Assembly (NCBI RefSeq): GCF_004210375.1
Contig: NC_134830.1
Coordinates: 44,273,094 to 44,337,093 of the forward strand
Direction: 5' to 3'
DNA length: 64,000 nucleotides
From: Tachypleus tridentatus
Lineage: Eukaryota > Arthropoda > Merostomata > Xiphosura > Limulidae
Shown: in pieces, positions 3,417 through 63,352 of the stretch
How positions within the stretch are numbered: the stretch's first letter is position 1
Layout: every line of letters starts with the position of its first letter
Notes under the pieces: generated by a model
What the model was told of the DNA's origin: nothing
Seen by the model: only the letters and a program-made list of their open reading frames with translations
Database searches by the model: none
Translations under genes and position numbers: made by a program

Positions 3417-4856
3417 CACTGCTAGCCAAAATCTTAAGGTCAATAAACATAAAGAAAAAATATGCATTTTGCGTTGTTAGACTCAACAATTTATTTGAGA
3501 AGAGCTTCGAAAGATGAAAATAAGAAAAGGGAAAATAAAAAATAAAAACTTATTTAGCATTTAATAGGGAAAATGTGAACACTATGAAATTAGCCTAAAT
3601 ACTAGCTGGTCAAAAGTTTAAGACCATACCAAAAAAAAAAGTCCTAAACAGGGTAGAAAATGTCTAATAAGAGGTCTCAGTAGTGACTTGCACTGTCGTC
3701 ATTGCGAATAACTTCAAAAATTCGCTTTGGCATGGCCGATATAAGCGTTTGCAGAAGGCTGGCTGGAATGTTATTCCAAGTGGTGAAGATGGCTTCACGT
3801 AGATCATGCACCGTTTGAAATTGACGTCCATTCTATAGACTTCTCTTGTCATCCACCCACAAACATTTTCGACGGGGTTCAGTTCGAGAAAACATGCTGG
3901 ATGATCCAAAAGAATCACGTTATTCGCCATGAAAAAGTCCTTTGTCCTGCGGGCATTGTGGATTGCAGCGTTGTCCTGCTGAAAGATCCAGTCATTTCCA
4001 CACAAGCGAGGGTCTTCAGACAATAAGGATGTTCTCTCCAACATGCCAATGTAGCCAGCCGCTGGTTGACGCCCCTGTATAACCTGAAGCTCCATTGTTC
4101 CGTAGAAGAAAAAAGCACCCCCAGATCATGATGGAACATCCTTCACTGTGTCGTGTAGACAATGTCTCCGGTGTGATATCAAAGATTAACCGAACTGTTT
4201 CGTGGTGTAGAAGGAGGCGTTGTCTTTGAAGGCGTTTATGGTTTTTAAAGCCTTTCTATCGTAGATGCCTTATTGTTCTTGAGCTGAGTTTTGCGTTCGT
4301 AAGGGCCTTAATTTGGTTCGACGAACACCTGGTGTCTTGCCGGAGAACCCATCGAATCCTCCTGCAAAACGCCAGCGAAATTTTCTTGGGCCGACCATTT
4401 AAAGTTCTTGTTCCGTATCCCTTAGGGTCTTTTAAGAAATTTGCAACAGCAGTTTTACTGTGCCCAATCTCACCAGCAATGGCACGTTGAGAGAGACCTT
4501 GCTTTTGCAGCTCGACAATTCTGCCACCTTCAAAGTCAGTCAACATTTTAGCCTTTGCCATGTTTTTACCCAACGTAACACAGGAGATGTTGACCACGCT
4601 AATGCTTGAACACAAATGACTAAATTTCTTTACGTGTTTACCGATTAACGCTTAGTTTCAGTATGGTTGTAAACTTTTGTCCAGTTAGTATTTAGGCTAA
4701 TTTCTTAGTGTTCACATTTTCCATATTAAATGCAAAAAAAAAAGTGTTTTTTTTTTCATCTTTCAAAGCTCTACTCAAATAAGTGGTTGAGTTTAACAAC
4801 GCAAAATGCATATTTTTTCTTTATGTTCATTGGCCTTAAGATTTTGGCTAGCAGTG
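3417..4856 (-). mobile_element. Tc1-like transposon, copy 1 (DD34E type, long IR/DR ends)
   Basis: The element is about 1440 bp and its transposase reads on the minus strand. Its ends match over about 200 bp as inverted repeats (3417-3629 and 4661-4856). A motif of type CACTGCTAGCCAAAATCTTA at the outer tip recurs in altered form (CTGGTCAAAAGTTTAAGACC) at the inner edge of each arm, which is the IR/DR plan known from Sleeping Beauty-type elements. It is flanked by TT on the left and TA on the right; TA is the usual target. Compared with the second copy at 14550, an internal piece before position 4190 is missing, including the segment with the first catalytic Asp. Confidence 0.93.
3664..4615 (-). 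pseudogene. Tc1-like transposase, broken
   Basis: The N-terminal part (4256-4615) has an ATG at 4561 region, MAKAKMLTDFEGGRIVELQK, followed by a paired helix-turn-helix region (GLSQRAIAGEIGHSKTAVANFL) and a basic GRPKK linker typical of Tc1 DNA-binding domains. The C-terminal part (3664-4095) holds WIFQQDNAAIHNAR and LELNPVENV. The Asp of QQDN and the Glu of NPVEN are separated by 34 residues, so it is DD34E. Between them the frame changes and the segment with the first Asp is lost, so no active enzyme can be made. Confidence 0.9.
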
Positions 4857-8740: not shown

Positions 8741-9014
8741 TTTGCTTGTTTTGAATTTCGCGCAAAGCTACTCGAGGGCTATCTGCGCTAGCCGTTCCTA
8801 ATTTAGCAGTGTAAGACTAGAGGAAAGGGAGGTAGTCATCAGCACCCACCGCCAACTCTTGGGCTACTCTTTTACCAACGAATAGTGGGATTGACCGTAA
8901 CATTATAACGCCCCCACGGTTGAAAGGGCGAGCATTTTGGTGCGGCCGGGATTCGAACCCGCGACCCTCGGATTACGAGTCGAACGCCTTAACACGCTTG
9001 GCCATGCCGGGCCT
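8741..9014 (-). repeat. SINE family A, full-length
   Basis: All modules are present on the minus strand: head GGCCCGGCATGGCCAAGCGT, B box GGGTTCGAATCCCGGCCG, middle and 3' module. Flanking ACTGTCACATG and ACTGACACATG look like an 11-bp target duplication with one change. Confidence 0.95.
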
Positions 9015-18581: not shown

Positions 18582-19340
18582 TTAGCCTTGGTCTATAAAG
18601 GTCAGTTTACAGTCAAAGATAAGCCCCAAGAACTTTGCCTCAGGGACCACGGGAAGCACAACTTTCAACGACACGGAGATCAGGATCAGTATTAATATCC
18701 CGGTGCATACAAACAGTTTTAGCGAGAAAAAAGTTAAACCGTTTGCTGCGCCCCAATTCGGTAAATGATTGAGGGCAGGCAGTAGCTGTCGTGTGATAAA
18801 CCTCATGTTCGACGACTGACACAAAATGTGGAAGTTGTGAGCATAGGGCATGTTTGCAACAGTAGGAGGAAGTTGTACAATGATGGCATTAATCTTTATA
18901 CTGAAAAGTGTGACACTCAAGACACACCCCTGATTCCAAGTTCCTGTAGAAAAGAACGGGAAAGTGTCGAACCCACATGAACTTAGAATCGCCTGTCCAT
19001 TCAAACATCTTTAATAAAAATGGGCAAATGGCCACACAATCAATATGAGTGGAAGTCTCGCAAAATACCATACCTTCTCAAGGTTAAAGAATACTGACAC
19101 AATATGTTGCCACTTGGGAAAGGTTTCTCTGATCAGCGTTTCAAGTCAAATCAGGTTGTTCACAGTGAAGTGCTATTGTTGGAACCCACACTGGGTGAGC
19201 GAGAAGAGTTTGTTTGATTCAAGGAACCAAACAAGACGAGCACTAACCATCTTCTCTAAGGTTTAACAGAGTCAGTTTGATAAAGCAATTGGACAGTAGT
19301 TTGAGGGAATCTTAGAATCATTCCCAGGCTTAGAGAAAGG
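18582..19340 (-). pseudogene. Reverse transcriptase part of ORF2
   Basis: Motifs appear in order: PSNYCPIAL near 19295, LEKMVSARLVWFLES, QCGFQQ, a VVSVFFDLEKA-like block (here VSVFFNLEKV), a G-V-QG-VLSVTLF-IKIN block near 18920, then PYAHN where active enzymes have a YVDD-type box, and AKFLGLIFDCKLTF near 18600. The catalytic Asp-Asp pair is replaced by His-Asn. Breaks: stops and frame changes between 19004 and 19300. Confidence 0.88.
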
Positions 19341-22000: not shown

Positions 22001-22278
22001 GGGCCTGGCATGGCCAAGCGCGTAAGGCGTGCGACTCGTAATCCGAGGGTCACGGGTTCGCGCCCGCGTCGCGCTAATCATACTCGCCCTCCCAGCCGTG
22101 GGAGGTATAATGTGACGGTCAATCCCACTATTCGTTGGTAAAAGAATAGCCCAAGAGTTGGCGGTGGGTGGTGATGACTAGCTGCCTTCCCTCTAGTCTT
22201 ACATTGCTAAATTAGGGACGGCTAGCACAGATAGCCCTCGAGTAGCTTTGTGCGAAATTCCAAAACAAACAAACAAAC
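22001..22278 (+). repeat. SINE family A, full-length with target duplication
   Basis: Complete copy of the GC-rich sub-type (GGGTTCGCGCCCGCGTCGCG at the B box). GAATACTTTTG occurs just before and just after, an 11-bp target duplication. Confidence 0.97.
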
Positions 22279-32805: not shown

Positions 32806-34388
32806 CGATAAAACCTGTCTAAGGCGGAATCGCAAGGGACCGAGTGAAATTTCCGGCTTAAACAGGTTTTTTTCGGCTTATATATATTATTATATATAAA
32901 TTTTGAGTGGAACGTTATACTTGCTTCACTCAAGAGAAGTAAGACGTTTGTGAATAAATTTATACTGTTTATGCTATATTTATTGGAATAAGAACAAAAA
33001 TAGACATTCAAAATATACATAAGTACACAAAATCTTAATCAAATTTATTTGAAGACAGTGTTCAATTTCAACTGTTTCGTTTTTTTTAATGGACTTTCTC
33101 ATGAAGTTAAAATAGAACGCCAATTCTGCGGTCTTTTTATGAAGTTCATTTTCCCCCTTCGTCTTTGCATACAATTTGATAGCGTTAATATAACTTAACA
33201 CTTGCGATGAAGTAGGAATTTCTATTTCCTCACTGTCTTTTCCATTTTGTTCATCTTCTGAATTTCTCACACTGTTACCATTTTGCGATTCTATTATAGA
33301 TTTTAAATAAATTTGATAACTTCGTTTAAACATTCTTGTCAACGTTCACAAAACTTTCCGTGTTCACAGAATCATCTGCATCAGTCTTCTAAATCAAAGT
33401 TTGAATTTCACTTGAATCATCATAACAAACAACTTCTCCACAATCTTCGTCATTATCAGGAATAAATCCACAGTTTCGAAAACACTTTATTATGCATTCA
33501 TCTTTTATGCATTTGATTGAATGACATAAAAATACAATTGCATCTGACCAGTCAATTTTCATGGTCACTTCAGATGCTCTCTTACAGTCGTCCATGTTTG
33601 CAATAATATACTGAAGCATCAATTTTCTGTATTTCAATTTTATACACTGTATAATTCCATTATTTAGTGGCTGTAGAACTGATGTTGTACATGGAGGTAG
33701 AAAGACTAAACAGACATTTGAAAGTTGAACTTTTGGGTGACAAGTTGCATTATCTAGGAAAAGTAGAATATTCCTATTTTCTTGTTCCATTTTTCTGTTT
33801 AATTTGTTCAAAAATTCCTCGAATATAGCACTTGTCATCCACCATTATTATTCGCTTTCCATTCCACAGGAACTTGATTCTTCCTCAAATCTTTGAAACA
33901 GCGCGGATTTTCACTTTTACCTGTTACCCATGGCAACGTTTCCCTAAATTTTAAAATTAGGGAAGATAGGAATTCATTTTTTCGTGAGAATTATTTAAAG
34001 AGTAAAATTTTGCACTTAAAAGACAAATATATTTTTACAAATCACGAATCTAATTTAACTGCAAAAATAAGTATTGCAGAAAAAAGAACTAAATATATTT
34101 AACCAATACTTACTGTAACAAAATGTCCGAGAATTTATTAATATTTAAACAAATTATTAAAAAAACAACAATTTATTAATATTTAAAGAAATTATTAATT
34201 AAATAAGAAATTAATATTTTATCAAAACATTTTTTCCGCCTTACTCAGGTTCTAATCCTACTTGTTGATAGATGAGGTAAGTGAAAGAGAGTTGCGCAGG
34301 TTCCGCAATATATGCTGCAAAATTTTAATATTTCCGACTTGTACAGGTTTCCGCCCGATGTAATTTCTGGCTTAGACAGGTTTTACTG
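32806..34388 (-). mobile_element. Pogo/Tigger-type transposon, internally deleted
   Basis: Ends CGATAAAACCTGTCTAAGGC (left) and the inverse of CAGTAAAACCTGTCTAAGCC (right), both flanked by TA. Each end has further AGGTTTCCG/CGGAAACCTG-like motifs inside (for example around 34250, 34300 and 34345 on the right). The transposase on the minus strand keeps only its C-terminal half. About 400 bp near 33950-34230 is AT-rich and does not encode the DNA-binding part. Confidence 0.93.
32980..33945 (-). pseudogene. Tigger-like transposase (DDE_1) C-terminal half
   Basis: The frame begins abruptly with WVTGKSENPRCFKDLRKNQV, then PVEWKANNNG, a frame change near 33838, and WMTSAIFEEFLNKLN. RNILLFLDNATCHP carries the second catalytic Asp. 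LPPCTTSVLQPLNNGII follows, where the third Asp is replaced by Asn (29 residues later, a DD29D spacing). A further C-terminal segment at 32980-33342 is acidic and lysine-rich. The N-terminal HTH domains and the first Asp are absent. Broken and catalytically dead. Confidence 0.9.
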
Positions 34389-41831: not shown

Positions 41832-42116
41832 GGGGTCCGGCATGGCCTAGCGCGTTAAGGCGTGCACTTCGTAATCTGAGGGTCGCGGGTTCGCGCCCGA
41901 GTCGCGCCAAAACATGCTCACCCTCCCAGCCGTGGGGGCGTTATAATGTGACGGTCAATCCCACTATTCGTTGGTAAAAGAGTAGCCCAAGAGTTGGCGG
42001 TGGGTGGTGATGACTAGCTGCCTTCCCTCTAGTCTTACACTGCAAAATTAGGAACGGCTAGCACAGATAGCCCTCGAGTAGCTTTGTGCGAAATTCCAAA
42101 AAACAAACAAACAAAC
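41832..42116 (+). repeat. SINE family A, full-length with target duplication
   Basis: Complete copy of the GC-rich sub-type. AAGTCTGTAATG lies directly before (41820-41831) and after it (42117-42128), a perfect 12-bp target duplication. The tail is CCAAA followed by AAAC repeats. Confidence 0.98.
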
Positions 42117-53296: not shown

Positions 53297-53459
53297 TAAC
53301 ACTATGTAACAAAATATATACCTTTACTTGTTCCTGAGCAGAAAGTGTTATTTCCAATTGTTTATGCTTAAATTAAATAGAAAATACCTATTTTTCTCTT
53401 CAAACTTTGCTTTTGTGACCTGGGTAATGAAATTTTTCAAATTTACCCATTTTCCAGAA
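53297..53459 (+). repeat. Left terminal inverted repeat
   Basis: Matches the inverse of 54691-54840 with about three quarters of positions alike by eye and a gap of about 8 bp. Shared blocks: TAACACTATGTAACA, TTGTTCCTG, GTGTTATTTC, AAACTTTGCTTTTGTGACCT and TAATGAAATTT. Confidence 0.93.
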
Positions 53460-53494
53460 AATTCCAGGTAGAATCAGTGCTGAGTGACTGATAG

Positions 53495-53594
53495 AGAATT
53501 TTCTCTAACTTACAAGAATTTTCAAGAACTTTTTAGAATGATGTAGAACTTACGAGAGTTTTCAAGAATATTTTAGAATTTTCTAGAACTTTCC
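53495..53594 (+). promoter_or_regulatory. Heat-shock-element array, 20 in-register pentamers
   Basis: From 53495 the sequence splits into twenty consecutive 5-bp units that alternate between nGAAn and nTTCn. Thirteen match exactly, six differ at one of the three fixed bases and one differs at two. The clearest blocks are AGAATTTTCAAGAAC (53515-53529) and AGAATTTTCTAGAACTTTCC (53575-53594). Heat-shock factor binds three or more such units, so the array offers several full sites. Part of it is a 40-bp duplication (53507-53546 against 53547-53586). Confidence 0.85.
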
Positions 53595-53601
53595 ATAGTA
53601 A

Positions 53602-53639
53602 TATACATATACAGAGGTTCACCACTCACCACTTCAGTT
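53602..53639 (+). promoter_or_regulatory. TATA-like box and arthropod initiator
   Basis: TATACATATACA (53602-53613) is followed by TTCAGTT at 53633-53639. The A of TCAGT at 53636 lies 28 bases after the second TATACA, the usual spacing for an arthropod TATA plus TCAGT initiator. The HSE array ends 8 bp before the TATA region, the layout of insect heat-shock promoters. Confidence 0.7.
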
Positions 53640-53683
53640 TAGCTGCCTAAGTGAACACATAGACCTATCTGATTTTGTTAGAG

Positions 53684-54519
53684 ATAGCATCAAGAAGCTG
53701 CAAGCATTCTCCAGATGCATTCTGCTATGTATGTACCCAATTTATCAAAACAAGAGAGAAAAAGTACTCTGTGACAACATGTGCTAAAATGTGTGAAGTC
53801 TACAAGGCATATTTCAGCATGCCTGTCGGAAATCAAGACAAACCCTGGGCATTTCATTTTACCTGTGAGTACTACAAAAAAAAAAAACTTTAGAAGGTAA
53901 GACAGACACTTTTTGCTTGCTTGAATAGTAAGATTTTATATTATACAAATTTTAGACATTTTAAAATTTCAATATCTTTTAATTTATTTTTCTTAATTTC
54001 CAATAGTATAGAAAAATATCACATATAAAATATTTTGCACAAACCTCTTACACATTAGTTGTTGATGAAATAAATGTATTCTTCATAATAACAATTTTAT
54101 TTTGCTCTTTTGCAGGATGGTACAGAGGGGAAAAGAGAACCATGAAGTTCGCTATTCCAAGAATTTGGTGTGAACCTACTTACCACTCAAGCAATTGCTG
54201 CTTCTGCATGGTGGATCCTTCCAAACATCGGGCTGGCAACAATGCATTTGTTATCATGTATGCAGATCTTCCATCATCCATCGCCCCAGAGCAACACTGC
54301 CCTGAGCTCCCTGTACCCACTCCGCCAGAGAGAAAGCATCCATCCTCAGAAGAGAGCAGCGAATCAGAAGAGGAGGTAGACGTTGAAGATCCAGATTACC
54401 ATTTCAGTGATGCAGCTGGTGAGAGAAACCCATACCACCCCAACCAAAGAGACCTCAATGACTTGATCAGAGATCTTGGTCTAACAAAGTCGAATGCCGA
54501 GACTACATGTGTGGGCTGA
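53684..54519 (+). pseudogene. Cys-rich arthropod multi-copy protein, N-terminal part, broken
   Basis: Exon 1 (53684-53896) would start with Ala-Ser-Arg after an ATA where an ATG is expected. It gives FCYVC, CAKMCEVYKAYF and WAFHFTCEY. A run of 12 A at 53876-53887 then puts the frame out; the frame KTLEG that leads into the splice site needs a different run length. The intron 53897-54115 (219 bp) begins GTAAGA and ends TTGCAG. Exon 2 gives WYRGEKRTMKFAIPRIWCEP, CCFCMVDP, a Pro-rich then Ser/Glu-rich acidic linker, and LNDLIRDLGLTKSNAE before a stop at 54517. Paired Cys and His suggest zinc binding. Homologues I remember are several times longer, continuing past LTKSNAE; here that is deleted. 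Function of the family is unknown to me. Confidence 0.85.
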
Positions 54520-54575
54520 TACGTGAATCTGATTTACATTACAGTCGCAAATCTCGAAAAACAACTCACTTCTAA
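54502..54575 (+). pseudogene. Orphan C-terminal tail of the same protein, other frame
   Basis: YMCGLIRESDLHYSRKSRKT followed by THF and TAA is read in a frame different from exon 2 across the same bases. From memory it resembles the basic C-terminal end of the long arthropod homologues. The junction GCCGAGACTAC, where GCCGA could belong to either side, looks like a microhomology deletion joint. Confidence 0.65.
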
Positions 54576-54690
54576 ACATTTTTGTTCGTTTTTGTATAAC
54601 TTTAATATAAATACATGTAAATCTTGATTCAGGTGTTGTTTTATTCAGACCTTATGTAAATGAAAACGTGCAAATTTGCCCGTTTATACA

Positions 54691-54840
54691 TAGAAAATAG
54701 GTTAAATTCTAAATTTCATTATCGAGGTCACAAAAGCAAAGTTTAAATGGAATAATGGCCATTTTCTGTACTTTTACAACGTAAGCAATTAAGAAATAAC
54801 ACATACTATCCAGGAACAAAATTTGTGTTACATAGTGTTA
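54691..54840 (-). repeat. Right terminal inverted repeat
   Basis: Inverse partner of 53297-53459, ending GTTACATAGTGTTA. Confidence 0.93.
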
Positions 54841-55780: not shown

Positions 55781-56052
55781 GAGGCCCGGCATGGCCAAGC
55801 GTGTTAAGGCGTTCGACTCGTAATCCGAGTGTCGCGGGTTCGAATCCTGGTCGCACCAAACATGCTCGCCCTTTCAGCCGTGGGGGCGTTATAATGTTTC
55901 GATTAATCCCACTATTCGTTGGTAAAAGAGTAGCCCAAGAGTTGGCGGTGAGTGGTGATGACTAGCTGTTTTACACTGCTAAATTAAGGACGGCTGGAGC
56001 AGATAGCTCTCGAGTAGCTTTGCGCGAAATTCAAAACAAAACAAACAAACCC
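55781..56052 (+). repeat. SINE family A, full-length
   Basis: GGCCCGGCATGGCCAAGCGT head, GGGTTCGAATCCTGGTCGCA B box, middle, slightly shortened 3' part and an AAAC tail. Confidence 0.96.
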
Positions 56053-63101: not shown

Positions 63102-63352
63102 CTGCCCCGGCATGACCAAGCGTGTTAAGGTTTGAATCCCCGTCGCACCAACATGCTCGCCATTTCAGCCGAGGGGGCGTTATAATGTGACTGTCAATCC
63201 CACTATTCGTTTGTAAAAGAGTAGCCCAAGAGTTGGCGGTGGGTGGTGATGACTAGCTGCCTTCCTTCTAGTCTTACACTGCTAAATTAGGGACGGCTAG
63301 CGCAGATAGCCTTCGAGTAGCTTTGCGCGAAGTTCAAAACAAACAAACAACT
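63102..63352 (+). repeat. SINE family A, shortened head
   Basis: CCCCGGCATGACCAAGCGTG then a deletion to GAATCCCCGTCGCACC, complete middle and 3' module. CTATTTTCA flanks it on both sides. Confidence 0.95.

Follow-up and report, generated by a model that had tools for sequence, protein, structure and literature searches.

A decayed Merrow-like Chapaev3 transposon with a heat-shock-element array upstream of its transposase gene in the horseshoe crab Tachypleus tridentatus

We analysed a 64,000-nucleotide stretch of the genome of the horseshoe crab Tachypleus tridentatus (contig NC_134830.1 of assembly GCF_004210375.1; G000:C6:44273094-44337093 in our numbering; hereafter the window) and found that positions 53297-54840 correspond exactly to a mobile element together with both of its flanking triplets. 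In identity and anatomy, the element is very probably a Merrow-like Chapaev3 cut-and-paste transposon, present here as a non-autonomous copy with an internal deletion. Between its left terminal inverted repeat (TIR) and the first exon of its transposase gene lies a 100-bp array of heat-shock elements (HSEs), in which inverted nGAAn units follow one another in 5-bp register (53495..53594, + strand). Alternating nGAAn units in this register are the arrangement bound by heat-shock factor (HSF), and it is likely that HSF drove transcription through the array in full-length copies. Our best reading of the family is an HSF-driven cut-and-paste transposon that has now decayed.

Results

Ends and target sites

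The whole element (53300..54837, +) is 1,538 bp long and reads 5'-CACTATGTAAC...GTTACATAGTG-3', with its ends set from the comparison of 31 copies described below. The left TIR (53300..53454, +) and the right TIR (54693..54837, -) were found by blastn of the left against the right end, the left one also by a repeat search. These repeats of about 150 bp are 72% identical across 158 columns, with ungapped blocks of 80, 29 and 27 nt at 76-81% in the repeat search, and this bears out an earlier note, made from the letters of the window, that had proposed a TIR-bounded mobile unit. The termini are 5'-CAC...GTG-3', as in Chapaev3 elements (CMC), and directly outside them we read TAA on the left (53297..53299, with an A before it) and TTA on the right (54838..54840). 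A first parse of the target-site duplication (TSD), with ATW before ACAC...GTGT and WAT after it, resembled a duplication of 1 or 2 bp. Shifting the end by one base gave TWA and CAC/GTG, and after this re-parsing an undescribed superfamily was dropped. No match to the window was found in Rfam.

Copies in the genome

When the genome (2.17 Gb, 205 contigs) was searched with the left TIR, 40 of 1,784 first-look candidates were scored and all 40 matched, so that 40 is a lower bound on the number of copies. Besides the window copy, 39 further loci were taken with their flanks, while the shorter L001-L008 were left out as duplicates. The left flanks of L022/L023 and of L027/L028 are nearly identical over 300 bp (99.7% and 99.3%, respectively), and therefore the 40 loci represent at most 38 independent insertions. 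Each of these pairs surrounds the same insertion, which points to segmental duplication or to haplotypes that the assembly left uncollapsed.

Both ends were paired by script in 31 of the 40 loci (unpaired: L010, L013, L015, L023, L028, L032, L045, L046 and L047). Using tblastn with P0002, a 562-aa protein of Myxocyprinus, we found that the same two ends surround pieces of the gene in all 31 paired copies. Being a DNA transposon, the element occurs in many copies, as the earlier note had supposed when it explained the copy number by the TIRs. Identical TAA or TTA triplets lie outside CAC/GTG in 23 of the paired copies, and the triplet is preceded by A in 28 and followed by T in 26. The eight copies without identical triplets include the window copy; in L018, L021 and L034 the ends were doubtfully placed by fuzzy matching. 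At least 527 of the 562 residues are spanned by five of the paired copies (2.38-2.53 kb), each of them interrupted by stops or frame changes, and the remaining ones carry internal deletions or insertions. The left TIRs diverge from their column consensus by 0.018-0.077 (mean 0.037, 31 paired copies), which may understate the age of the family because these copies were selected by similarity to the query.

A genome search with the protein, in which 77 of 26,583 candidates were scored, gave at least 96 matches. By hand count, 55 of the 96 rows were Merrow-like and spanned at least 276 residues, and every one of these contained at least one stop, so all long Merrow-like coding copies scored here are broken (55/55). 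Another 21 rows, at 49-52% identity, belong to a second, single-exon family, and the last 20 rows cover short pieces only, exon 1 in 16 cases. To avoid selection by the ends, six Merrow-like copies were chosen by protein match; blastn detected both TIRs in five of them, whereas L057 retains the right TIR but only a short motif of the left end.

The array upstream of the gene

Within the array of the window copy, AGAAn units alternate with TTTCn-like units. Its 12-unit phased score was 31 of 36. Sixty dinucleotide shuffles averaged 17.7 and never scored above 21, and the highest score among 342 background chunks of 500 bp was 23. Of the 40 copies selected through their left end, 36 scored at least 26 (35 of 38 without the duplicate loci L023 and L028), and four of the six protein-chosen copies scored at least 30. 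A separate three-unit HSE, TTCnnGAAnnTTC, occupies the inner edge of the left TIR (53452..53464, +), and 27 of the 40 copies have one. Downstream of the array, a core promoter was recognized by eye at 53602..53639 (+), with the run TATACATATA and the motif TCAGTT about 34 bp further on, which we take to be TATA-like and an arthropod-type initiator, respectively. A strict TATA-to-TCAGT pattern is present in 19 of the 40 copies. An nGAAn array close to the putative transcription start site fits the architecture of an HSF-regulated promoter, and the heat-shock-type promoter described in the earlier note was thus recovered, at scores well outside the shuffled and background ranges.

The transposase gene

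Exon 1 (53684..53896, +) encodes transposase residues 1-70; its first codon is not ATG, and a run of 12 A shifts the frame near its end. It is followed by a 219-bp GT...AG intron (53897..54115, +), and a break at residues 60-70 is likewise seen in many other copies. The exon 2 remnant (54116..54522, +) covers residues ~70-198 and then runs out of frame to a stop, and a C-terminal remnant with residues 539-562 follows in a different frame (54501..54575, +), after an internal deletion of ~340 codons. The junction of residue ~198 to 539, near 54501, is common to the window copy, L018 and L024 (3 of 31 paired copies). Read through these breaks, the gene shows 76% identity to P0002 over 96% of the query.

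The deletion takes out the catalytic core of the window copy, and the gene that had been described as Cys-rich encodes the N-terminal part of a transposase. If transcribed, this copy could at most have yielded N-terminal fragments, for which a repressor role is possible. Of the single spliced gene in the earlier note, the two exons and the GT-AG intron stand, but the gene is not intact, given the 12-A frameshift, the non-ATG first codon and the loss of most of its C-terminal half. The note had also left open a transposase or an accessory protein; it is the former, represented here mainly by its N-terminal part. Nor is the protein restricted to arthropods, since its closest matches are in fish and frogs, with mantis shrimp and lampreys next.

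The C(2)C, LH and H(4)H motifs of a DDE transposase are present in 72 full-length relatives, in the region that is deleted in the window copy, and all three candidate catalytic positions are covered in 9 of the 31 paired genome copies. For a full-length relative, a RAG1/Transib fold was predicted for residues ~175-555 at 9-16% sequence identity; RAG1 and Transib headed the fold listings, although a family missing from such a list could still fit. This prediction is what the grouping of Chapaev3 with Transib would lead one to expect (as set out in a passage of PMC4411706).

Among the listed relatives, P0012, P0281, P0217 and P0140 come from mantis shrimp, octopus, tunicate and glass sponge, hosts that are absent from Table 1 of PMC4079192. 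In some gene models the transposase is fused to a host gene: to peroxisomal biogenesis factor 7 in P0235 (Acipenser), to a BTB protein in P0046 (Penaeus) and to Ig-type domains in P0216 (Serrasalmus). Such fusions may reflect exonisation of an insertion or faulty annotation.

A second Chapaev3 family

In the second Chapaev3 family of this genome, whose gene has a single exon, 8 of the 21 rows are free of stops. The three loci with both flanks (L048, L050 and L051, on G000 C9, C5 and C6) have the ends CACTGGTTTACA...TGTAAACCAGTG, and in two of them TTA stands on either side. A fourth locus, L049, was left out of the array control, as its stretch ends at the coding match and contains no promoter.

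Other repeats in the window

An abundant short interspersed repeat, with ~190 bp covered and perhaps a short interspersed nuclear element, has 30 matching stretches in the window (for example 63159-63347, 8748-8929, 41921-42110, 22086-22272 and 55868-56044) and many in other loci, including the left flanks of the element copies L029 and L044. At 3664-4651, 33389-33844 and 18582-19010 (all -), fragments resembling Tc1-type and pogo/Tigger-type transposases and a reverse transcriptase were seen by eye.

Discussion

In the mechanism we propose, HSF would bind the array in full-length copies and activate transcription from the TATA-like/initiator region. The spliced mRNA would encode a transposase of ~562 aa, which would pair the TIRs, cut at CAC/GTG and insert the element into A-TWA-T sites. 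Deleted copies such as that of the window would be moved in trans by enzyme from other copies. We infer HSF control from the array alone, and heat induction of the transposon, the switching on by stress that the earlier note suggested, would follow from it; that the element transposed follows from its family and predicted fold.

Several observations weigh against this reading. No array is present in L009, L016, L023 and L036 among the 40 left-end-chosen copies, nor in the protein-chosen L054 and L057 (scores 21 and 20); most array-less copies look deleted at the array, and L023 consists of N from the array onward. The window copy itself misses the strict TATA-to-TCAGT pattern, its TATA-like run being imperfect, and its flanking triplets, which differ by one base, are not an identical pair. 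The one paralogous empty site found (L044 compared to L039) is only ~76% alike and does not place the TSD to the base. In the second family, the 1,000 bp upstream of the gene hold no array in the three loci that contain upstream DNA (scores 18, 19 and 19), and an array is therefore not needed for a Chapaev3 element. Finally, the array could be the product of neutral slippage or serve transposase binding.

This last point leads to an explanation that we consider unlikely but worth setting out, namely that the phased GAA/TTC array consists of subterminal transposase-binding repeats, or is a simple tandem repeat that resembles HSEs. The program TRF finds a tandem repeat of 10/20/40 bp at the array, which lies just inside the left TIR and differs in length among copies without a clear 10-bp step, so that its length was not used as evidence of kept phase. 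However, the alternation of GAA and TTC keeps strictly to a 5-bp phase immediately ahead of the TATA-like/initiator region. The array is moreover confined to the left end, as the right ends of all 31 paired copies lack it (scores 17-21). Its absence from all three loci of the related second family, in which the reading frames are partly uninterrupted, also argues against such a role. The same absence indicates that the array is not general to the group, as would be the case if the transposon had first entered the genome and then acquired the promoter of a heat-shock gene of the horseshoe crab; we regard this origin as improbable. That the element represents an undescribed superfamily, or encodes an accessory protein, is a highly improbable alternative. 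It would agree with the lack of any Pfam family above its cut-off in the scanned proteins, and with the source names of the listed relatives, all "uncharacterized" or "hypothetical" save one BTB fusion model. Against it stand the predicted RAG1/Transib fold and the agreement with Chapaev3/Merrow in protein length, ends, TSD rule, motifs and hosts (main text and Table 1 of PMC4079192).

An HSF-driven Chapaev3 transposon remains the preferred reading. Whether stress activates transposons is a long-standing debate, and to our knowledge clear HSF-driven DNA transposons are few. Here a RAG/Transib-type transposase gene has an HSE array in its promoter in most of the copies examined, while the sister family of the same genome lacks one, which provides a clean natural comparison. 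The horseshoe crab also becomes a further host in a transposon group whose horizontal transfer is already known. More tentatively, a RAG-related transposon may have put its transposase under HSF control and thereby spread ready-made HSE arrays through the genome, and surviving arrays could put host genes under heat control.

Comparison with known systems

The family is Chapaev3 (CMC/Transib-RAG group), and its closeness to Merrow appears from protein comparison, including a protein tree, and the published description. Merrow, listed in Repbase as Chapaev3-1_PM in the Chapaev3 group, was published in 2014 (Zhang et al., PMC4079192), so the family is already placed in a named superfamily, an outcome that the earlier note had itself named as refuting its reading, and was not undescribed, as had been supposed there. 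Judged by the main text and Table 1 of that paper, Merrow and the horseshoe crab family are alike in their two-exon, 562-aa transposase (the length of P0002), in full length (~2.45 kb and 2.38-2.53 kb, respectively), in CAC/GTG ends, in a TWA TSD between A and T, in the C(2)C, LH and H(4)H motifs and in having relatives in lamprey and sturgeon; the Merrow hosts there also include dragonfly. The exon split differs, being 78+484 in Table 1 and after codon 69-70 in the window copy (near residues 66-70 in other copies). Membership of Merrow was defined there by at least 80% nucleotide identity, and the horseshoe crab is absent from the hosts of Table 1.

PIF/Harbinger elements duplicate a 3-bp TWA target. 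This superfamily was considered for its TSD and is not favoured; it shares the TWA duplication but differs from the CAC ends found here, the fold listings were led by RAG1 and Transib, and Pfam listed no Harbinger-type DDE match for five family proteins at E up to 10, with filters that drop most weak matches. The ends and TSD of RAG1/Transib differ from those of the Chapaev3 family here; the predicted fold is common to both, with sequence identity of only 9-16%. RAG1 is the enzyme that rearranges antibody genes. Kapitonov and Koonin put Chapaev3 in the Transib superfamily, and in the relevant passage the Chapa zinc finger is described as present in Chapaev3 and truncated in TransibSU (PMC4411706). 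Candidate origins in viruses (87 pattern matches in viral_contigs) and prokaryotes (27 in genome_contigs) were rejected, as none of the matches was confirmed.

What looks new is the HSE array in the promoter, since the transposon family itself is already published. The words "heat" and "promoter" are absent from the main text of PMC4079192, and no HSE-bearing Chapaev3/RAG-like element was found there or in a limited literature search. In the portions of PMC12810828 that name HSEs, these sit in long terminal repeats and not in its CMC elements; a term search of PMC6327564 and PMC8896005 gave nothing on the family, and six protein motifs gave no literature match. The closest parallel is provided by the HSE-bearing Helitrons of C. 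elegans, in which the transposase promoter contains many HSEs, as in our family: in Helitron1_CE, 14 of them precede the transposase gene, and the element responds to heat by induction (passages of PMC6927752). Those elements are rolling-circle Rep-Helicase transposons and not DDE cut-and-paste elements, and induction by HSF-1 was shown for them in functional tests (PMC6927752), whereas the horseshoe crab case is drawn from sequence. With Helitron1_CE as a precedent, HSF-driven DNA transposons are therefore known in kind.
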